A DNA stretch of 64,000 nt from Leeuwenhoekiella parthenopeia (GTDB taxonomy: Bacteria; Bacteroidota; Bacteroidia; Flavobacteriales; Flavobacteriaceae): contig NZ_JAJGMW010000012.1 of the NCBI RefSeq assembly GCF_020782115.1, positions 1 through 64,000 on the forward strand, in the 5' to 3' direction. How positions within the stretch are numbered: the first letter of the stretch is position 1; every line of letters begins with the position of its first letter. Under the pieces are notes generated by a model, which saw only the letters and a list, made by a program, of their open reading frames with translations, made no database searches and was not told the origin of the DNA. The position numbers were made by a program, and so were the translations under genes. Shown one piece after another: positions 13,923-50,604 of this stretch.

Positions 13923-14432
13923 ATGAACCAAAAGGAATTTTTAGCTCACGTGACTCCCGTACAGGACCGGCTGTACCGCCTTGCAAAGCGGTTGCTGGTT
14001 TCTGAAGACGAGGCTCAGGACGCTACACAAGAGGTTCTTATAAAATTATGGTCGTATCGCAAAAAGTTTAAAAAGCTCAAAAGTGTGGAAGCCTTTGCAG
14101 TAACCATAACCAAGAATCATTGTTACGATAAGCTGAAGCTGAAAAGCAGCAGCAATTTGCAACTGGTACACACCAATTATGAAGATGAGCATTATAATAC
14201 GGTAAAACATACCGAAAATCAGGACAGCGTAAATTGGGTATTAAAATTGATGAATGACCTACCCGAACAGCAACGAGTGGTTTTGCATATGCGTGACATA
14301 GAGCAGTACAGTAACAGTGAGATTGCCGAAGAATTAAATTTAAATGAAACAGCGGTGCGTGTGACGCTTTCGAGAGCCCGAAAAACCATACGCGAACAAT
14401 TGCTAAAAAAACACAACTATGGAATTAGATAA
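13923..14432 (+). CDS. ECF-type RNA polymerase sigma factor
   Basis: A 169-residue sigma-70 family protein of the extracytoplasmic-function class. Region 2 covers about residues 10-75 with DEAQDATQEVLIKLWSYR and FAVTITKNHCYDKLK, and region 4 about 105-160 with LPEQQRVVLHMRDIEQYSN followed by the helix-turn-helix EIAEELNLNETAVRVTLSRAR. There is no region 3, as usual for ECF factors. The stop overlaps the next gene by 14 bases, so it is translationally coupled to a probable membrane anti-sigma protein, and two DUF4252 genes follow. The cluster is a common flavobacterial envelope-response unit. The signal it senses is unknown. Confidence 0.92.
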   Translation: MNQKEFLAHVTPVQDRLYRLAKRLLVSEDEAQDATQEVLIKLWSYRKKFKKLKSVEAFAVTITKNHCYDKLKLKSSSNLQLVHTNYEDEHYNTVKHTENQDSVNWVLKLMNDLPEQQRVVLHMRDIEQYSNSEIAEELNLNETAVRVTLSRARKTIREQLLKKHNYGIR

Positions 14433-14856
14433 AATCGAAAACCTGCTCCAGCTTTATTTTGAAGGGGAGACTTCTTTGGAGCAGGAAGCCCAGTTGCAGA
14501 ACTACTTTACTAGTGACAAGGTAGCCGCGCATCTGGAAGAATACAAGCCTTTGTTTGCAGCCTTTGCCGTTGCCCGGGAAGGTAGTTTTAACCGAACCTT
14601 AGAACTGCCCGAGGATAAACCCAGACGCTATTGGATACCCATTGCAGCGAGTATTTTGCTTTGTGTAGGCCTGTTTTTGACCTTCAATAAGCAATCTGCA
14701 TCAGAGCAGGATCTGGGTACTTATAAAGACCCGGAGGTAGCAGCTTTAAAAACCAAGCAGGCCCTGTTTATGATGGGCAACTTTGTAAACAAAAGTACCG
14801 GTAACCTCAATAAGCTTGATGCTTTTGAAGAAACCACCAATCAAATTTTAAAATAA
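14419..14856 (+). CDS. Probable anti-sigma factor, single-pass membrane protein
   Basis: A 145-residue protein with a cytoplasmic N-terminal helical part (about 1-75; LYFEGETSLEQEAQLQNYF resembles the zinc-finger-less anti-sigma N-terminus of Bacteroidota), one membrane helix at about 78-94 (IPIAASILLCVGLFLTF) and a short periplasmic tail. It overlaps the sigma gene by 14 bases. Position, size and single-pass topology make a sigma-binding role likely, although no classical anti-sigma domain is recognised. It is followed by two DUF4252 genes in the same transcription unit, separated from it by 16 bases. Confidence 0.75.
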   Translation: MELDKIENLLQLYFEGETSLEQEAQLQNYFTSDKVAAHLEEYKPLFAAFAVAREGSFNRTLELPEDKPRRYWIPIAASILLCVGLFLTFNKQSASEQDLGTYKDPEVAALKTKQALFMMGNFVNKSTGNLNKLDAFEETTNQILK

Positions 14857-14872
14857 TCAAAATCAAAAAACG

Positions 14873-15391
14873 ATGAGAAAATTAGTAATTACAATCCTTT
14901 TGGTAAGCGTGAGTCTTACCGGTTTTTCACAAAGCTTCGAGAAGTTTGAAGATATGAAAGATGTAACCGCAATGGTTATGAATCAAAAAATGTTCAAGCT
15001 CCTCGGCAAGATGGATCTCGACTCTAAAGATCCGGAGATGAAAAATTACATCAATATGGTTAACAGCCTTAAGGAAATTCAGGTATATGCAACAAAGAAT
15101 CCCTCTGCCGCGGGTATGATGAAGAGTGAGTTTAATGCGTACAGGTCATCCCAAAAGTTAGAGCAGTTGATGCGCGTTAAGGACGATGGTAAAAACGTGA
15201 ATTTTTACTACAAGCCCGGTAAAAGCGAAGATTTCGTAAGCGAGTTTCTGATGTTTTTAAACGGCACAGGTGATGAAGATACCGTTATCATCAAAATAAC
15301 CGGAGACATTGACCTTAAAGAAATAGGTAAGATCGCGAGCAGCATCAATTTTGAAGGCAGCGAAGAACTTAAGAACGTAAAAGTAAACTAA
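14873..15391 (+). CDS. DUF4252 secreted protein
   Basis: A 172-residue protein with a cleavable signal peptide (MRKLVITILLVSVSLTGFSQ) and a DUF4252-like body, including the DMKDVTAMVMNQKMFKLLG segment and a terminal ITGDIDLKEIGKIASSINFEG. The domain is defined in Bacteroidota and its function is unknown. It lies between the anti-sigma gene and a second DUF4252 gene; the next gene begins two bases after its stop codon. As part of the sigma-factor operon it is probably under autoregulation by that sigma factor and has an envelope role. Confidence 0.82.
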   Translation: MRKLVITILLVSVSLTGFSQSFEKFEDMKDVTAMVMNQKMFKLLGKMDLDSKDPEMKNYINMVNSLKEIQVYATKNPSAAGMMKSEFNAYRSSQKLEQLMRVKDDGKNVNFYYKPGKSEDFVSEFLMFLNGTGDEDTVIIKITGDIDLKEIGKIASSINFEGSEELKNVKVN

Positions 15392-15392
15392 G

Positions 15393-15929
15393 ATGAACTT
15401 TCTAAAATCAGGCGTACTTGCTCTGGCTATTTTCAGCCTAATAGGCTGTAATAATGAGCAATCGCTACAGGAATACTATATCGACAGCAAGGAGAATGAT
15501 GCGTTTATCTCGCTCGATGTGCCCACAAGCCTTCTTGCCCCGGCAAGCGAAAAGCTTTCGGCAGATCAACAAAAAGTGGTGAATTCAGTTAAAAAAATCA
15601 ATCTGCTGGCTTATTCTCTGAAGGATACGGGTTTTTACAATACCGAAACGACTAAGCTTAAAGACATCCTTAAAAACGATGATTACGATGAGTTGATGAA
15701 AGTAGGCAATAGCGGGCAACGTATGCGTATTTTTATCAAAGGCGATGAAGATGCCATTGATGAGGTGGTGCTCTTTGCTCAGGACGAAAATAAAGGCTTT
15801 CTGGTAGCTCGTGTTCTGGGTGAGGATATGAACGTTGCCGATATGGTGCGCTTCGCCGAAACGATGGATACCAGCAGCGCTACACTCAATACCGGTGGCT
15901 TTGAAGGGATTATGGATGTCTTCAAATAA
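15393..15929 (+). CDS. DUF4252 lipoprotein
   Basis: A 178-residue lipoprotein with lipobox SLIGC at about residues 15-19 (MNFLKSGVLALAIFSLIGC, 19 residues). The body shares the DUF4252 pattern with the gene just upstream: LRK-type helices, a DYDELMKVGNSGQRMRIFIKG region and a closing LVARVLGEDMNVADMVRF-like segment. The start is two bases after the previous stop, so the pair is coupled. A terminator with a UUCG loop follows and closes the sigma-factor operon. Both DUF4252 proteins probably work outside the cytoplasm, one soluble and one lipid-anchored; what they do is not known. Confidence 0.82.
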   Translation: MNFLKSGVLALAIFSLIGCNNEQSLQEYYIDSKENDAFISLDVPTSLLAPASEKLSADQQKVVNSVKKINLLAYSLKDTGFYNTETTKLKDILKNDDYDELMKVGNSGQRMRIFIKGDEDAIDEVVLFAQDENKGFLVARVLGEDMNVADMVRFAETMDTSSATLNTGGFEGIMDVFK

Positions 15930-22814: not shown

Positions 22815-25511
22815 ATGAAAAAAATCTATTTTTTAGCATTGTCCTTATTTATGCTTTTTTCGTGTAGTGAAGATGATTCACCATCTGAGGTTGTTAATGA
22901 ATTAGGACTAAGAACTTCATTTGATTTAAATGCAGTTAACGCATCTACTAGTGGGATGGTGCAATTTACTGAAAATGCTGATGGCTCAGTGAATATAGCT
23001 TTAGTGCTTGATAGTCCGCTTGCAGGAGTAAATCCTGCGCACATTCACTATAATTCAGCTGCTGAAGGAGGTGAAATAGCTCTTACACTTGAATCTATAG
23101 GCGATGGGGAAAAGCTAAGTGTTACGAGAAATGTGACAGCCCTTGATGATGGCACTCCAATTTCTTATGAAGAATTAATTGCATTTGACGGTTATATTAA
23201 TATTCATCAAAGTGCAGATGATTTGGGTACTTTGTTATTGCAGGGTGATATAGGGCCAAATGTTCTTACGTCTAATAGCAAGACTTATAATTTAGTGACA
23301 AAAGATGTTGAGGGGATAAGTGGTACAGCTACTTTTACTGAACGTGAAAGTGGAGATGTTCTTTTAGAGGTTATTCTCGAGGGAACACCAAATGGTGGTG
23401 TACACCCCGGTCATATTCATAATAATTCTGCTGCTGAAACAGGAGGTATAGCACTTACCCTGACCCCATTAGATGGAACGACTGGAATAAGTAGAACTAA
23501 TATTACTGCATTAGATGACAATACTCCAATTGATTTTGAAGGTCTACTTAATTTTGATGGTTACATTAACTTCCATTTAAGCGCAGACCAATTAGGAACA
23601 TTGGTTGCTCAAGGAGATATAGGCGAGAACGAACTAACAGGAGAGACGAAAGAATATGATCTGGTAACCAAGGATGTCGAAGGCATAAGTGGAACCGCAA
23701 CTTTTGCAAAACGTAAGAGCGGCGCTGCGCTTGTTACCGTAATGTTAGAGGGTACTCCAGAAGGTGGAATGCATCCTGGTCACATTCATAACAACTCTGC
23801 TGCTGAAACCGGAGGAATTGCCAAGACTCTTACTACTTTGAACGGAACAACCGGTATGAGTGTTACTCATATTGAAGCTTTAGATGACGATACAGCCATA
23901 GGTTATGATGCTTTATTAAACTTTGACGGTTATATCAATTTTCATTTGAGTGCAGAAGAGTTGGGAACTTTAGTTGCCCAGGGAGATATTGGAGAAAATG
24001 AACTTACTGGAGAGACAAAAGTCTATGATTTGGATACTAAAGATGTTGCCGGTATTAGTGGAACAGCAACTTTTGCAAAACGTAAGAGTGGCGCTGCACT
24101 TGTTACTGTAATGTTAGAAGGTACACCTGACGGTGGAATGCATCCGGGTCATATTCACAATAATTCTGCAGCTGAAACCGGAGGAATTGCCAAGACTCTT
24201 ACTACTTTAAACGGAACAACCGGAATGAGTGTTACTCACATTGAATCTTTAAATGACGACACTGAAATAGGTTATGATGATCTACTTGATTTTGATGGAT
24301 ACATAAATTTCCATTTAAGTGCATCTGATTTAGCTACACTTGTAGCTCAGGGTGATATAGGTGAAAATGAACTTACTGGCGAGACCAAGGTTTATGATTT
24401 GGATACTAAAGATGTTCCTGGTATTAGTGGTACTGCTACTTTTGCTGAACGTAAGAGTGGTGCTGCATTGGTAACCGTAATGTTAGAAGGTACCCCTGCC
24501 GGCGGAATGCATCCCGGTCACATACACAATAATTCTGCTGTCGAAACCGGAGGAATTGCCAAGACTCTTACTACTTTGAACGGAACAACCGGAATGAGTG
24601 TTACTCATATTGAAGCTTTAAATGATGGTACCGAAATAGGTTATGCTGGCCTTTTAAATTTTGATGGCTATATCAATTTTCATTTAAGCGCTTCAGACTT
24701 AGGAACCCTGGTAGCACAAGGAGATATAGGTGCAAATGAGTTAACCGGTAATACCAAAACCTATCTTTTAGGTAGTAAAGACGTTGCTTCAATTAGCGGT
24801 TCAGCGCTGTTTTCAGAGCGTAAGGACGGCACCACATTAATTGAATTGAATATTAATGGAACACCAGCAGGCGGAATGCATCCAGCACATATTCATAATA
24901 ATACTGCTGTTGAGGGAGGTTCAATTGCCATTACTCTTGGAACTGTAAACGGAACAACCGGAATGAGTGCTGTACAGGTTGAAACTTTAGATGATGGCGA
25001 AACTGCTGTTTCGTACTCTGATTTACTAGACTTTGATGGTTATATAAATGTACATTTAAGTGCCGCAAATTTAGGTACTATCGTAGCTCAGGGGGATATA
25101 GGTCAAAATGAATTGACCGGAGCCAGTAAAACCTATGCTCTCAATACTAAAGACGTAGCAGGTATAAATGGTACTGCGAAGTTTGAGAAACGTAAGAACA
25201 ACGAGACCTTGGTGACACTTGATATTCAGGGTACGCCTGCAGGAGGTGAGCACCCTGCACACATTCACGCAGGTTCTGTTGCTGAAGCCCCGGGTGATAT
25301 CTTGATTACGTTGATGTCTGTTGATGGTGATACTGGAATGAGCCAGACCAATGTGACGGCTTACAATGCTGAAGACGGTACTGCTAATGGCGGTGCAGCA
25401 ATCACTTACGATCAGATGGTTGCAATAGATGGTTATATTAATGTGCATCTAAGCGCAACTCAACTGGGTACTATTGTTGCTCAGGGGAATGTAGGTGCAA
25501 ATGCAAACTAA
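22815..25511 (+). CDS. CHRD-repeat lipoprotein (seven repeats)
   Basis: An 898-residue lipoprotein (lipobox LFSCS, residues 14-18 region) made almost wholly of seven tandem CHRD-like domains of about 123 residues. Each repeat has an HPxHIHxxSA motif (the first reads NPAHIH), then GTTGMS, then FDGYINxHLSAxxLGTxVAQGDIG. The repeat phase is regular, with the HIH codons beginning at 23031, 23403, 23772, 24141, 24510, 24879 and 25251, a spacing of 369 or 372 bases. CHRD domains occur in chordin and in many bacterial secreted proteins; their bacterial role is unknown. The histidine cluster could bind metal. A second gene of the same type follows. The start follows a TTATT-rich leader. Confidence 0.88.
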   Translation: MKKIYFLALSLFMLFSCSEDDSPSEVVNELGLRTSFDLNAVNASTSGMVQFTENADGSVNIALVLDSPLAGVNPAHIHYNSAAEGGEIALTLESIGDGEKLSVTRNVTALDDGTPISYEELIAFDGYINIHQSADDLGTLLLQGDIGPNVLTSNSKTYNLVTKDVEGISGTATFTERESGDVLLEVILEGTPNGGVHPGHIHNNSAAETGGIALTLTPLDGTTGISRTNITALDDNTPIDFEGLLNFDGYINFHLSADQLGTLVAQGDIGENELTGETKEYDLVTKDVEGISGTATFAKRKSGAALVTVMLEGTPEGGMHPGHIHNNSAAETGGIAKTLTTLNGTTGMSVTHIEALDDDTAIGYDALLNFDGYINFHLSAEELGTLVAQGDIGENELTGETKVYDLDTKDVAGISGTATFAKRKSGAALVTVMLEGTPDGGMHPGHIHNNSAAETGGIAKTLTTLNGTTGMSVTHIESLNDDTEIGYDDLLDFDGYINFHLSASDLATLVAQGDIGENELTGETKVYDLDTKDVPGISGTATFAERKSGAALVTVMLEGTPAGGMHPGHIHNNSAVETGGIAKTLTTLNGTTGMSVTHIEALNDGTEIGYAGLLNFDGYINFHLSASDLGTLVAQGDIGANELTGNTKTYLLGSKDVASISGSALFSERKDGTTLIELNINGTPAGGMHPAHIHNNTAVEGGSIAITLGTVNGTTGMSAVQVETLDDGETAVSYSDLLDFDGYINVHLSAANLGTIVAQGDIGQNELTGASKTYALNTKDVAGINGTAKFEKRKNNETLVTLDIQGTPAGGEHPAHIHAGSVAEAPGDILITLMSVDGDTGMSQTNVTAYNAEDGTANGGAAITYDQMVAIDGYINVHLSATQLGTIVAQGNVGANAN
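23031..25500 (+). repeat. Tandem 369-base coding repeats (CHRD units)
   Basis: Seven in-frame units with 369- or 372-base phase. Units 3 to 5 (near 23772, 24141, 24510) share long almost identical DNA stretches, for instance GAATTGCCAAGACTCTTAC at 23815, 24184 and 24553, each exactly 369 bases apart. This points to recent unit duplication or homogenisation by recombination rather than old divergence. Confidence 0.9.
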
Positions 25512-25860
25512 TTAAACAGTATTTGAATATTCAGAAAACCCGGCCAGTTGGCCGGGTTTTTTAATTTCAAAAATGATATTTACTTAATGATTTTTCAAAT
25601 GATCCGTTAGTAAAAAGATTTATCGGGATTTAGTGGATCCTTATAATCGAATGGGTTAGGATTTTAACGATTAAATACGTTTAGGTTTTTATATATTTTC
25701 ATTAATTATATCCTCTAGCGCTGACTTTCAGTTTTTTAGCCTAAACTTTTAGTTGAACAAGTCCGGTATTTTTCAAAATTTTAGGTTAATTGCAATAAAA
25801 TCCTTTAAAAGCCCTATTTAATTTTATATTATTGCGATAATTCTAATCAAAATTAAATTT
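25512..25860. other. Intergenic stretch between the CHRD genes
   Basis: 349 bases without a gene. It holds the terminator of the first CHRD gene (25535-25562) and then about 300 AT-rich bases. A near-consensus -7 box TATTATTG (25827-25834) lies 26 bases upstream of the second CHRD gene. No ORF, hairpin or repeat of note is seen in 25565-25820. Confidence 0.5.
25535..25562 (+). terminator. Terminator of the first CHRD gene
   Basis: AAAACCCGGCCA-GT-TGGCCGGGTTTT followed by TT: a GC-rich palindrome with a T tail. The terminator behind the second CHRD gene is almost identical, with similar flanks (ATATTCAGAAAA). Confidence 0.9.
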
Positions 25861-27843
25861 ATGAAAAAGATTTATTTCTTTGCATTATCATTATTGGTAC
25901 TGATTTTTGCAGGATGCTCTAATGATGATGACGGAGTAGCGATCATTCCAGGTGAGGCTACCGGAAACATTACAACTTACGATTTAAGCTCAGTTTCTGA
26001 CCCTGATATTAGCGGTACAGTAACTTTTACAGAAAAAACAGATGGTTCTACAGACATCAGCATTTTGATGGACGGAACAACCGGTGGTTCTCATCCGGCC
26101 CACATCCACGCAGGGACTGCTCTTGAAGGAGGTGATATTGTTATCGATCTTACTCCTGTTGATGGTGCTACCCGAAGAAGTCTTACCAATGTTACAGCTA
26201 CAAATGATGGTACTGACGTTAGTTATGAAGATTTAATCAATTTTGACGGTTACATCAATGTTCACGCTAGTGCCAGTGATTTAGGAACATTATTAGCGCA
26301 GGGAGATATAGGAGAAAATGCACTTACAGGAGAGTCTAAAGAATACACGCTATTTACTAAAGATGTAGAAGGTATTGAAGGTACTGCTTTATTTGAAGAG
26401 CGTGTTAGCGGCGAGACTTTGATAACTCTTGACATACAAGGTACACCCGAAGGTGGAATGCACCCTGCACATATTCACGCAGGTACTACTCTTGATAATG
26501 GAGCTATTGTCGTAAGTCTTACAACCGTTGATGGTGATACCGGTATGAGTATGACTGATGTATCTGCGCTTAACGACGGTTCACCAGTGACTTATGAAGA
26601 ACTTTTAGAATTTGACGGTTATATTAATGTTCACGCTAGTGCCAATGATTTAGGAACTATTGTTGCTCAGGGAGATATAGGTCAAAATGAGATATTAGAC
26701 TCTAAGGAGTATGAATTAATGGCTAAAACGGATGCTAATGTGATGGGTACTGCTACAATCGCTATGCGTGCAGACAGTACTTCAGTTGTAACCTTAAACG
26801 TTGAGAATACAATTGCAGGTACAATGCATCCTGCACATATTCACGAAAATAGTGCTGTAGAAACCGGAGCTATTGTTGTAGATCTTATGGCGGTTAATGG
26901 TGATACAGGAATTAGTATGACTAATGTTTCTGCTTTAAACGACGATACCGAAGTTAGCTATGAAGATCTTTTAGAATTTGACGGGTATATCAATATTCAT
27001 CTTAATGGAACTGACTTAACCGTAGTTTCTCAAACAGACATAGGAGCTAATGAGTTAACCGGAAATACGAAATCCTATGTTCTTGCAACAAAAGATGTAG
27101 CCGGAATTAATGGTACTGCATTGTTTTCTGAGCGTATGGACGGGACGACATTAGTTGAATTGACGCTAAACGGAACACCGGCAGGTGGAATGCATCCAGC
27201 ACATATTCACGCAAACACAGCCGTTGAAGGTGGAGATATCGAAATCACTTTAGGAACTGTTAATGGAACTACCGGAATGAGTGCTGTACAGGTTGAAGCT
27301 CTTAACGGTGAAGATGGAACTCCTAATGCCGGAGAAGCTATTACCTACGCAGAATTACTAGACTTTGATGGATACATCAATGTACATTTAAGCGCGACTG
27401 AACTGGGTACTATTGTAGCTCAGGGCGATATAGGTCAAAATGAATTAACCGGAACTTCTAAAACCTACGTTTTAAATACTAAAGACGTACCTGGAATCAA
27501 TGGTACGGCTAAATTTGAAGAGCGTGTTAACGGAGAGACTTTGGTTACTTTAGATCTTGACGGTACTCCTGCAGGAGGTGAGCACCCTGCACACATTCAC
27601 GCAGGTTCTGTTGCTGAAGCTCCGGGAGATATCTTGATTACGTTGATGTCTGTTGATGGTGATACCGGAATGAGCCAGACCAATGTGACGGCTTACAACG
27701 CTGAAGATGGTACTGCTAATGGTGGTGCAGCAATCACTTACGATGATATGGTTGCGATAGATGGTTATATTAATGTGCATCTAAGCGCAACTCAACTGGG
27801 TACTATCGTTGCTCAGGGGAATGTAGGTGCAAATGCAAACTAA
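25861..27843 (+). CDS. CHRD-repeat lipoprotein (five repeats)
   Basis: A 660-residue lipoprotein paralogous to the upstream 898-residue gene. The lipobox is FAGCS at about residues 17-21. Five CHRD-like domains follow, their HPAHIH codons beginning at 26092, 26461, 26827, 27193 and 27583; the last interval is longer because of an inserted AEDGTANGG-type loop. The third repeat is the most divergent. The last repeat and the stop and terminator region are nearly identical in DNA to those of the upstream gene, which indicates gene conversion or a recent duplication of the 3' end. Both proteins should be lipid-anchored at the cell surface or in the periplasm. The role is not known. Confidence 0.88.
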   Translation: MKKIYFFALSLLVLIFAGCSNDDDGVAIIPGEATGNITTYDLSSVSDPDISGTVTFTEKTDGSTDISILMDGTTGGSHPAHIHAGTALEGGDIVIDLTPVDGATRRSLTNVTATNDGTDVSYEDLINFDGYINVHASASDLGTLLAQGDIGENALTGESKEYTLFTKDVEGIEGTALFEERVSGETLITLDIQGTPEGGMHPAHIHAGTTLDNGAIVVSLTTVDGDTGMSMTDVSALNDGSPVTYEELLEFDGYINVHASANDLGTIVAQGDIGQNEILDSKEYELMAKTDANVMGTATIAMRADSTSVVTLNVENTIAGTMHPAHIHENSAVETGAIVVDLMAVNGDTGISMTNVSALNDDTEVSYEDLLEFDGYINIHLNGTDLTVVSQTDIGANELTGNTKSYVLATKDVAGINGTALFSERMDGTTLVELTLNGTPAGGMHPAHIHANTAVEGGDIEITLGTVNGTTGMSAVQVEALNGEDGTPNAGEAITYAELLDFDGYINVHLSATELGTIVAQGDIGQNELTGTSKTYVLNTKDVPGINGTAKFEERVNGETLVTLDLDGTPAGGEHPAHIHAGSVAEAPGDILITLMSVDGDTGMSQTNVTAYNAEDGTANGGAAITYDDMVAIDGYINVHLSATQLGTIVAQGNVGANAN

Positions 27844-27866
27844 TTAATTAGCATTTTAATATTCAG

Positions 27867-27895
27867 AAAACCCGGCCAATTGGCCGGGTTTTTTT
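27867..27895 (+). terminator. Terminator of the second CHRD gene
   Basis: AAAACCCGGCCAATTGGCC palindrome continuing GGGTTTT and a T run; the 26-base core is perfectly self-complementary. Apart from one base in the loop it equals the terminator at 25535. Confidence 0.9.
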
Positions 27896-48586: not shown

Positions 48587-49396
48587 CTAGGCATTGCCTT
48601 GTACTACACCCAGCGTATAGAGTTGCTCCATCGTTGGGGTTTCGCTTCCGCCAGCAGGCTCAAGCGTGATACCAAATGCCTGTGAGTCGTTAGGATTATC
48701 CAGTTCAAAGACCTTGTTTTCATCCTGACTAAAGTTTTCAAGCAGACCCATGCTGGTAGGAGTAAGCGGGTCTAGTTTTAAGGACCAAACCTGATATACA
48801 AATCCTTCCGGAGGCTCGGGGAGACCTAAAGCATCAATATATGCTTTGTTTGAAGCTTTATCCCAAAATACATTTACATAAGCTTCCGGCGCAACCTGCT
48901 GTCCTGCAAGTGGTATTTTGGTCACCTGCGGATCGCGAATCACCGCCAGAATTTCTTTGGTTTCCTGAAGGGCCTCTTCAGAATAATTCAATTTGCTTTC
49001 GAGCTGTGTTTTTTCAACCTCCACGGTCTGAAGCTCTTCACGCAGTGTATTTGTTCGGTTTAGTAGAGCAAAAATACCTATGAGGAACAGGATCGAAGCG
49101 GCCATGCTTATGTACGAAAGCACACGCGCTCGTTTTTGAGAGACAGTAGGCTGAAGCTGAATCACGCCGTCTGCATTTCGCAATTTTGACTTGATTGCAG
49201 CCAGAAGGACTTCGGGATTGTACGGTGCCGCAGCCGATGACAGGTTTTGAAGCGCTGTTTCAATTTGCTCTACTTCCTGCTGTACCTCGGGGTATTGTGC
49301 GAGGATCGCAGAAACCTCTTCGCTTTCTTTCGGCGTAAGCGCACCGTAAACGTAGAGCTCGAGGATGCCAGATTCTATGTATTCTTGAATATCCAT
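48587..49396 (-). CDS. Anti-sigma factor, RskA-like
   Basis: A 269-residue single-pass membrane protein. The N-terminal part (about 1-90) has the anti-sigma zinc-finger-like layout without Cys/His ligands, and includes LYVYGALTPKESEEVSAIL typical of RskA-group proteins. One membrane helix follows at about 90-110 (ISMAASILFLIGIFALL), a coiled coil (about 115-155), and a C-terminal RskA-like periplasmic domain with GFVYQVWSLKLDPLTPTSMG and LEPAGGSETPTMEQLYTLG. It is encoded three bases downstream of the ECF sigma factor gene. It would hold the sigma factor inactive at the membrane until a signal triggers proteolysis. Confidence 0.92.
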   Translation of the reverse strand: MDIQEYIESGILELYVYGALTPKESEEVSAILAQYPEVQQEVEQIETALQNLSSAAAPYNPEVLLAAIKSKLRNADGVIQLQPTVSQKRARVLSYISMAASILFLIGIFALLNRTNTLREELQTVEVEKTQLESKLNYSEEALQETKEILAVIRDPQVTKIPLAGQQVAPEAYVNVFWDKASNKAYIDALGLPEPPEGFVYQVWSLKLDPLTPTSMGLLENFSQDENKVFELDNPNDSQAFGITLEPAGGSETPTMEQLYTLGVVQGNA

Positions 49397-49399
49397 AAT

Positions 49400-49960
49400 T
49401 TAATTTACCAAGATTTCGCGCAGCTTGTTAATGCAAAGTCGGTTACGGGTCTTTACGGTTCCCAGAGGCATATTGAGCTCCTCAGAAGTTTCTTTTTGAG
49501 TATATCCTTTAAAAAATAACAGGTCGATGACTTTCTTACATTCTTCACCCAGCGTTTTGATATACTTCTTAATTCCTATAGCGTCAACTTTACTTGTAAA
49601 ACTGCTTTTGTGTTCGAGTATATCTACGAAATATTCCTGAGTTAGGTTTTTCTTTTGGTTTTTAAAAGCCTTAGACCGCGTCTTATCTATAGCGGCGTTG
49701 CGTGCGATATTGAGAAGCCAGGTAAAAAAACGTCCTTTTTCGGAAGTATAGGATTCTGAATTGTCCCACACCTTAACAAAAACGTCTTGCAGTACTTCTT
49801 CGGAAGCTTCGGTATCGTGAAGTACGCTGTTGATTACGCCAAAAATACTTTCAGAATAAAGGGAGTAAATCCGCTCAAATGCCTTTTCATCTTTTTGTTG
49901 TAATCGTAAAATCAGTTCGTCGGGTTGCATAGCGATTTTTTGGTTTGCTAAATGTATCAA
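49400..49960 (-). CDS. ECF-type RNA polymerase sigma factor
   Basis: A 186-residue sigma factor with region 2 at about 25-95 (FERIYSLYSESIFGVI and LQDVFVKVWDNSESY, with FTWLLNIARNAAIDKTRSK) and region 4 at about 125-180 (LGEECKKVIDLLFFKGYTQ and the helix-turn-helix SEELNMPLGTVKTRNRLCINKL, cited in parts). It is the SigK-like class that works with RskA-type anti-sigma factors, as encoded next door, three bases downstream. The Cu/Zn SOD gene lies 56 bases upstream on the same strand but ends in its own terminator, so it is separately expressed. The signal is unknown. Confidence 0.93.
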   Translation of the reverse strand: MIHLANQKIAMQPDELILRLQQKDEKAFERIYSLYSESIFGVINSVLHDTEASEEVLQDVFVKVWDNSESYTSEKGRFFTWLLNIARNAAIDKTRSKAFKNQKKNLTQEYFVDILEHKSSFTSKVDAIGIKKYIKTLGEECKKVIDLLFFKGYTQKETSEELNMPLGTVKTRNRLCINKLREILVN

Positions 49961-49964
49961 ATTC

Positions 49965-49993
49965 CATAAAAAAAAGCAGCCCTAAAGCTGCTT
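49965..49993 (-). terminator. Terminator of the SOD gene
   Basis: GCTGCTT pairing with AAGCAGC (49974-49980 and 49987-49993) around TTTAGG, followed on the minus strand by at least eight T. It lies 24 bases beyond the SOD stop. Confidence 0.8.
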
Positions 49994-50016
49994 ATATTCA
50001 TTAATTTATTATAGTC

Positions 50017-50604
50017 TTATTCAATAATGCCACCACAACTTACGCGGGCACCGGCATCACCACTTGGCTGACTGGTAAAATCATCGGCTCCTGCGTGAAC
50101 GATAAGGCCTTTACCTAAGATGTCTTTCATAGGATCTTCACAACCTATGCACCATTCATCGGTAGCGATTGTGATGGTACCATTACCGTTAGCATCGGCT
50201 TCAAAGTTGCCTATATCTCCTTTGTGATAACCTGCGGCATCGCCCCACTTACCATGTTGCTCTTTAGTAGGATTCCAGTGACCACCGGCAGAAGTACCAT
50301 CATCTGCAGAGCAATCTGCATTTTCGTGAATGTGTATCGCGTGCATACCCGGCTCGAGACCTTCAAAAACGGCAGTCATAGTTACTGTGCCATCTTCTTC
50401 TTTAAATACTGCGCTTCCCTGTGCAGTACTTCCACTTTTTGATTCCAGTTTAACGGTTACTTTTTTTGGCTCTGCCATTTCTTCTTCCATCGCAGGAGCT
50501 TCAGTTACCGTATTTTCTTCGGCGTCTTTATCTTTCTTGTCATTCTTGCAGGAGGTAAAACCCAGTGCAAGGGCAAGTGTAAAAAACAATGCATAATTTT
50601 TCAT
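50017..50604 (-). CDS. sodC: Cu/Zn superoxide dismutase lipoprotein
   Basis: A 195-residue secreted dismutase converting superoxide to oxygen and peroxide. A lipobox GFTSC is at about residues 15-19, followed by an acidic Lys/Glu linker. The SOD domain (about 50-195) keeps the metal ligands: GMHAIHIHENADC (two Cu His), GGHWNP (His), YHKGDIGNF (bridging and Zn site) and GKGLIVHAGADD (Cu His), with the Arg of GDAGARVSCG and the disulfide Cys pair. It is therefore likely active and lipid-anchored in the periplasm or at the surface. The neighbouring sigma operon is separate. Confidence 0.95.
   Translation of the reverse strand: MKNYALFFTLALALGFTSCKNDKKDKDAEENTVTEAPAMEEEMAEPKKVTVKLESKSGSTAQGSAVFKEEDGTVTMTAVFEGLEPGMHAIHIHENADCSADDGTSAGGHWNPTKEQHGKWGDAAGYHKGDIGNFEADANGNGTITIATDEWCIGCEDPMKDILGKGLIVHAGADDFTSQPSGDAGARVSCGGIIE

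Follow-up and report, generated by a model that had tools for sequence, protein, structure and literature searches.

The gene pair and its repeated units

Two adjacent genes of Leeuwenhoekiella parthenopeia encode lipoproteins composed of tandem CHRD units. They were analysed in the first 64,000 nucleotides of contig NZ_JAJGMW010000012.1 (assembly GCF_020782115.1, forward strand); this whole stretch is called the window, and all positions refer to it. The first protein, P0001 (898 amino acids, aa), contains seven units, and the second, P0002 (660 aa), contains five. The Pfam family CHRD (PF07452) matches them with 78.1 and 75.2 bits, respectively (cut-off 24.1), in seven and five separate stretches. 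These scores are far beyond chance, and both proteins are members of the family. Thus the two neighbouring CHRD-repeat lipoproteins with seven and five units, as claimed in the original prediction, are confirmed by both the open reading frames (ORFs) and the Pfam matches. The features of the locus are listed below.

22815-25511, plus strand: lipoprotein P0001, with a signal peptide, lipobox Cys17 followed by SEDDS, and seven CHRD units of predicted superoxide dismutase (SOD) fold
22815-22880, plus strand: signal peptide of P0001, with the lipobox cysteine codon at 22863-22865 and the acidic, export-signal-like CSEDDS (assigned by eye; lipoprotein export signal pattern from PMC5080379)
22908-23279, plus strand: unit A1, with the variant motif NPAHIH
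23280-23648, plus strand: unit A2
23649-24017, plus strand: unit A3 (ratio of nonsynonymous to synonymous substitution rates, dN/dS, about 0.07 against A4 and A5)
24018-24386, plus strand: unit A4
24387-24755, plus strand: unit A5
24756-25127, plus strand: unit A6
25128-25508, plus strand: unit A7, 94% identical to B5 at the protein level (dS 0.32)
25535-25562, plus strand: terminator-like hairpin 3' of the P0001 gene
25861-27843, plus strand: lipoprotein P0002, with a signal peptide, lipobox Cys19 followed by SNDDD, and five CHRD units of predicted SOD fold
25969-26337, plus strand: unit B1
26338-26703, plus strand: unit B2 (the modelled unit is the same, cut one codon later)
26704-27069, plus strand: unit B3
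27070-27459, plus strand: unit B4
27460-27840, plus strand: unit B5
27867-27895, plus strand: terminator-like hairpin 3' of the P0002 gene

The steps between successive HIH motifs are 124, 123, 123, 123, 123 and 124 aa in P0001 and 123, 122, 122 and 130 aa in P0002. The unit step is thus mostly 123 aa (369 bases) with a range of 122-131 aa, and the strict 369-base phase claimed originally does not hold. The motif HPxHIH, said to be kept in all twelve units, is intact in eleven; the first unit of P0001 reads NPAHIH. The core P-x-H-I-H is invariant in all twelve, as is a second motif, DGYIN-x-H, which had been overlooked.

The acidic stretches after the lipobox cysteine, CSEDDS in P0001 and CSNDDD in P0002, were recognized by eye. 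They resemble SDDDD and SDDFE, which were tested as working export signals in Capnocytophaga, a member of Bacteroidota (PMC5080379). The Pfam family LPAM_1 scores 11.5 bits on P0002 (cut-off 20) and is not listed for P0001. Judging from these signals, both proteins are probably tethered as lipoproteins at the outer face of the outer membrane.

Predicted fold and relation to superoxide dismutase

A single unit (26341-26706) was modelled from 91 units. The model (identifier md2685fc005c1; pLDDT 94.5, pTM 0.87) has eight strands. Among the 50 Foldseek matches listed for it, 47 are SODs, copper chaperones for SOD (CCS) or SOD-like proteins, and three are neocarzinostatins. A second look at the Foldseek matches with VIA-align listed 50 matches, all of them SODs or SOD-domain copper chaperones, with Z of 10.2-11.3 over 98-107 residues. 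The unit is confidently predicted to have the Cu/Zn SOD fold, an eight-stranded Greek-key barrel. The chordin structure 9RD6 was not among the matches listed in these searches or in that with the full five-unit model; it is possibly too recent for the library.

The sequence profile of the unit points the same way. In the comparison with PDB sequences, the Cu-only SOD5 of C. albicans comes first (E 3.4e-4) with P-x-H-x-H aligned. Only SOD5 entries fall below 0.001; SOD chaperones have E-values of at least 0.016 and Cu/Zn SODs of at least 0.066. The window also encodes a Cu/Zn SOD lipoprotein, SodC, which hhalign aligns to the unit profile with E 1.4e-7; for 21 SodC relatives the E-values are 1.6e-9 to 3.1e-9. 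The controls gave 0.34 (reversed profile), 0.017 (best of 20 column shuffles) and 0.2 or worse (six other window proteins). Compared with PDB sequences, the SodC set has 144 matches at E <= 1e-10, and the 60 listed are SODs or SOD-like.

In this alignment, G-M-H-P-A-H-I-H of the unit is placed on G-M-H-A-I-H-I-H of SodC. By homology, the HIH cluster represents the motif of copper ligands in Cu/Zn SOD, the pattern H-x-x-H-x-H being shared with SodC. The preceding H41, present in eleven of the twelve units, aligns with a histidine that SodC also has just before the copper pair. In SOD, the copper ligands are carried by strands 4 and 7. In the unit model, strand 4 bears H44 and H46, and strand 7 bears H98; judged by the motif, the fold and the order of the strands, these would be the counterparts of three copper histidines. 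The earlier statement that no enzyme motifs are seen is therefore not borne out, although several SOD features are missing from the units (see below).

In a Pfam scan of 91 single units, 71 matched CHRD and 22 matched Sod_Cu at E <= 0.01. For P0002 as a whole, Sod_Cu scores 52.5 bits (cut-off 28.9). This score is summed over the repeats, but the label was retained because four stretches are above the threshold applied and both the profile and the fold lend it independent support. Two other labels, Ntox24 (45.2 bits on P0001 and 23.9 on P0002, cut-off 24) and Cu-oxidase_2 (32.2 and 35.3 bits, cut-off 20.4), were rejected, because their scores sum over the repeats with no stretch, or one, passing alone. 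No NCBIfam family scored over a cut-off.

The zinc site of SOD is absent: loop IV of the unit model is 8 residues long, and in 342 of 390 units the stretch from HIH to the last histidine contains no further histidine. The intramolecular disulfide is missing as well, each protein having one cysteine, in the lipobox. Of the electrostatic loop VII, the unit model retains 2 residues and the full model described below about 8 at most. The active-site arginine is not represented either: no arginine occurs in the columns listed with a conservation of at least 86%. E52 is 86% conserved and is D in the modelled unit; the loop bearing the E110/D113 signature of CSRPs and Cu-only SODs is shortened. The intact four-histidine copper site and disulfide of the latter proteins were not found either. 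Since the bridging histidine, zinc loop, disulfide and most of the electrostatic loop are absent, the units belong neither to the Cu/Zn SODs nor to the CSRPs. Loss of the zinc loop, of the disulfide and of most of the electrostatic loop should leave the metal pocket open, and by homology the unit histidines should line it.

In the full model of the five units of P0002 (mc1fb20c75117), three residues separate the last strand of a unit from the first strand of the next. Thus P0001 and P0002 would share with CSRPs the tandem arrangement of seven and five SOD-fold repeats on short linkers. Such gaps fit a fairly rigid string, as in the rigid rod proposed originally. However, the pTM is 0.69 and the domain arrangement is only moderately confident. 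For the five-unit model, Foldseek ranks complement proteins first with TM of about 0.1, which was regarded as a size artefact, and SODs come next.

Conservation, selection and exchange of units

Conservation was counted in 278 near-complete units from 75 loci; 67 seed-overlapping hits and two partial units were left out of a total of 347. The ORFs had been picked for at least two motif matches, and the sample leans towards conserved units. H44, H46 and H98 are each kept in 277 of the 278 units, and H41 in 268. Some non-histidine columns are equally conserved, namely G54 and G114 (278/278) and N116 (277/278). The pattern [DN]G[YF]xxxH is missing from 39 of 429 units. Most of those printed keep the histidine in a variant such as DAYINVH, and a few are cut by the locus end or are different.

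Units A3-A5 have dN/dS of 0.066-0.069 at dS of 0.85-1.32. Six other unit pairs with a finite value have dN/dS of 0.17-0.40, and the pair A2-A3 is saturated at synonymous sites. The view that each of the repeated units is maintained is thus supported in outline, by both purifying selection and conservation.

Comparison of P0001 with the seven-unit array of a second species (L050/L008) gave same-position identities of 80-94%. However, only units 1, 2, 3 and 6 are closest to their own position. Unit 4 matches unit 3 equally well, unit 5 is more similar to other units of the middle, and unit 7 is more similar to B5. This rules out strict position-by-position orthology. Together with the low dN/dS, this pattern shows that the units are held by selection while the middle units exchange or duplicate.

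The last units A7 and B5 and the hairpins following the two genes (25128-25562 and 27460-27895) are near-identical, while most other units have diverged. This suggests that the 3' end was recently duplicated or subject to gene conversion.

Distribution of the arrays

A scan of genome contigs produced 250 pattern matches, of which 219 were confirmed. The best 80 of the 219, corresponding to 79 distinct loci, were kept. From the record titles, we take all of these to be Bacteroidota except one (L052). The latter is titled as a metagenome-assembled genome of Thalassovita sp., an alphaproteobacterial name, and carries a typical Bacteroidota-like five-unit array; the contig is perhaps misbinned, or the array was transferred.

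The number of HIH motifs was counted in 89 distinct closed ORFs, P0002 among them; such counts can miss a unit. There are 29 ORFs with five motifs, 23 with four, 14 with six, 11 with three, 11 with two and one with seven. In a sample of the phylum, 26 of 395 genomes, including that of the window, have units at E <= 1e-6. Thus such units are widespread but patchy in Bacteroidota. Within the genus, 13 genomes were searched. The present one has 12 units, the maximum; eight others have 7, 6, 6, 5, 5, 5, 4 and 3, and the remaining four have none at E <= 1e-6. Arrays of equal length and start are also found in other Leeuwenhoekiella records and further genomes of the genus. The arrays as such are not rare, but seven units are the top of the range and the genome total is the highest of the 13 genomes.

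Four loci (L031, L033, L066, L098) have a gene with a two-unit array next to one with five units, and paired arrays are thus recurrent. Pfam CHRD domains of any kind occur in 70 of 397 genomes of the same bacterial family. Three loci of this family (L116, L121, L122) have frames of 1719, 954 and 857 aa with strong-scoring classical CHRD repeats, a second kind of CHRD array.

Gene neighbourhoods

The sodC gene of the window forms one cluster (48587-50604, minus strand) with genes of an extracytoplasmic function (ECF) sigma factor and an RskA-type anti-sigma factor.

50017-50604, minus strand: SodC, Cu/Zn superoxide dismutase lipoprotein with the same H-x-x-H-x-H motif as the units
49400-49960, minus strand: ECF sigma factor downstream of SodC, with relatives beside CHRD arrays in six other loci
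48587-49396, minus strand: RskA-type anti-sigma factor (PF10099)

Related pairs of ECF sigma and RskA-type anti-sigma genes lie directly upstream of the array, in the same direction, in 4 of the 79 array loci (L068, L058, L040, L081) and in the same block as the array in two more (L076, L072). Pfam confirmed the RskA domain in five of these six pairs; for L072 no result is given.

Related loci were found in 108 of 149 genomes searched, and the 30 best-scoring loci were read. The first gene upstream of the sigma gene is sodC in 21 of them (20 of 29 without the window itself); since the best-scoring matches were read, this count is biased to close relatives. The other nine loci have a YceI-like lipoprotein gene (four loci) or unrelated genes (five loci) in this position. 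Three proteins (L138, L142, L160) were labelled CHRD by the unit profile, but Pfam shows SodC, and they were counted as such. The metal-ligand histidines, aspartate and arginine of SodC are invariant in 21 relatives. The gene orders link SodC and the CHRD arrays to related stress modules, the latter in a small minority of array loci only.

Genes of a helicase, adenylosuccinate lyase, sirtuin-like deacetylase and rRNA methyltransferase recur near the arrays, in up to 22 of the 79 loci (names assigned by eye). They were judged to reflect shared chromosome order and were rejected as functional partners.

A second ECF sigma and anti-sigma pair, followed by genes of two small exported proteins, is found at 13923-15929. 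Each of these four genes has relatives in 12 of the 79 array loci, mostly upstream of the array.

Comparison with known CHRD and SOD proteins

The similarity of CHRD to SOD was proposed by Hyvonen 2003, as cited in PMC5776111. Thus the family, with its SOD-like barrel and frequent repeats, and its relation to SOD are already known; the array variant described here is new. Among classical CHRD loci of the same bacterial family, single or repeated, H-x-H is found in 23 of 26 and Y-x-N-x-H in 24 of 26 (the patterns were chosen by the analyst, and two loci gave no output). The units considered here differ from these in the extra histidine at position -3 (HPxHIH), which is shared with SodC, and in forming regular arrays on lipoproteins. 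None of the H-x-H motifs printed for the classical loci has this histidine.

SodC resembles the units not only in the motif and in the significant profile similarity, but also in being a lipoprotein linked to a related sigma/RskA module. On the other hand, it is a single domain with the full set of Cu/Zn ligands, cysteines and long loops.

In the CSRPs, between 4 and 12 Cu-only SOD-like domains follow one another on short linkers, and an extracellular location is predicted (PMC13017621). The units share with them and with Cu-only SODs the tandem SOD-fold domains, short linkers, loss of the zinc site and of the long loop VII and, by inference, the extracellular location, as far as the models go. 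In contrast, they are bacterial, have no disulfide and only three of the four copper histidines, and belong to the CHRD branch by Pfam. A review calls CSRPs and fungal Cu-only SODs opisthokont-specific and mentions neither CHRD nor chordin (PMC13017621). Human chordin has four SOD-like CHRD repeats that likewise lack the long loops of SOD, but it has lost the metal histidines, whereas the present units keep three (PMC13382577).

Bacterial CHRD proteins have been described on spores (PMC5335551), in a table of low-temperature proteins, where the neighbouring locus tag is a catalase-related peroxidase (PMC7522526), and in the response to iron and dust (PMC5776111). No description of copper ligands in bacterial CHRD arrays was found among the literature matches listed.

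Possible functions of the arrays

In the model that we propose, each of the twelve units would be a small CHRD barrel of the Cu/Zn SOD fold with three histidines, H44, H46 and H98, at the SOD copper positions. The units would be strung on very short linkers and tethered as lipoproteins, probably at the outer face of the outer membrane, so that the arrays may keep numerous copper ions at the surface of the cell and serve as a copper sink, a superoxide-reactive shield, or both. In a few relatives, an envelope-stress sigma/anti-sigma module precedes the arrays; relatives of this module otherwise follow SodC. The fold and the conservation of the ligands are well supported. Since each unit keeps three SOD copper histidines, the proteins may be copper-binding arrays, and we consider copper binding rather likely. 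Of the metals named in the original prediction, copper is the most probable occupant of the three-histidine site, given the SOD copper positions, and calcium is unlikely for a site of this kind. On balance we lean towards cell-surface strings of open, copper-binding SOD-like modules, acting as a sink, a superoxide-reactive coat, or both. The locus is real and regular, and by motif and model it is reinterpreted: rather than an anonymous histidine rod, it would encode SOD-fold CHRD modules in tandem, in which a copper motif of three histidines is preserved.

Several observations weigh against this reading. The fourth, bridging copper histidine of SOD (H63 of the human enzyme) has no conserved counterpart in the units. 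Alignment to SodC is significant for the first half of the unit only (residues 2-49). Global hhalign does not align the second half sensibly, and in a forced full alignment H98 stands opposite the last copper histidine of SodC with low confidence, so that its role as the last ligand would follow from the fold, the strand order and this alignment. Foldseek alone produced no match to the unit at E <= 0.001 (the best is 1.3e-3). Pfam does not list Sod_Cu for P0001, and in the first table of the single-unit scan no unit tested alone reaches the cut-off of this family (18.3 against 28.9 bits). As to the neighbourhood, 73 of the 79 array loci have no related sigma pair in the flanks examined, and the recurring neighbours look like housekeeping genes (by eye, with part of the neighbours annotated), though copper genes may lie at a greater distance. 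Among known proteins, domain II of CCS, which lacks one copper histidine, though a different one, binds no copper (PMC13017621). The SOD-like CHRD domains of human chordin have no visible metal and bind glycosaminoglycans (2026 structure, PMC13382577). The fungal CHRD protein FonCHRD seemed uninvolved in oxidative stress responses (PMC12825985).

The strongest competing explanation is an array that holds no metal and has a structural or adhesive role. The SOD fold would then serve as a rigid spacer or a glycan-binding rod, and folding or ligand contacts would account for the retained histidines. This explanation agrees with the chordin domains (PMC13382577), with the short linkers of the full model and with the equal conservation of G54, G114 and N116. 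However, the histidines at the three copper positions are retained almost universally in the units, whereas metal-free chordin lost them, and we regard this alternative as rather unlikely.

Alternatively, the units could be true superoxide dismutases, each turning over superoxide at an open copper site in the manner of fungal Cu-only SODs and of the oyster CSRP, which disproportionates superoxide (PMC13017621). The best PDB sequence match, to a Cu-only SOD, and the link to the sigma/RskA module of the SodC type are consistent with this. As the fourth copper histidine, a long loop VII and the disulfide are missing and no arginine stands in the highly conserved columns listed, SOD activity is possible but improbable.

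In other beta-barrel proteins, sites of three histidines hold Zn, Mn or Fe, and the units could likewise be a scaffold for zinc, manganese or iron. An iron response is described for Trichodesmium genes that are said to contain several CHRD domains (PMC5776111). Such a scaffold is a distinctly weaker candidate, as the closest relatives in both sequence and fold use the same positions for copper. Finally, neutral growth of a slippage-prone array with no function per unit, suggested by the variation from 0 to 12 units per genome within the genus and by the nearly interchangeable middle units 3-5, is hardly credible, as dN/dS is well below 1 in all pairs with a finite value, even at dS of about 1 among A3-A5, and the three-histidine set is intact in all twelve units.

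Microbial CHRD domains had no clear predicted function as of 2017 (PMC5335551). As the bacterial arrays, unlike chordin, keep the histidines at the SOD copper positions, copper binding or superoxide removal is directly testable. If the arrays do either, many Bacteroidota would carry a surface copper or superoxide system of a kind not found described among the literature matches listed, and the origin of the central domains of chordin would become clearer. More speculatively, and with considerable doubt, we suggest that multi-copper surface proteins arose in Bacteroidota separately from those of animals, as strings of up to seven open copper sites on an SOD-fold scaffold that are under envelope-stress sigma control in some lineages and serve as superoxide shields or copper stores. 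If true, these would be a bacterial counterpart of the animal CSRPs. It would also suggest that CHRD was ancestrally a copper domain, later emptied in chordin.

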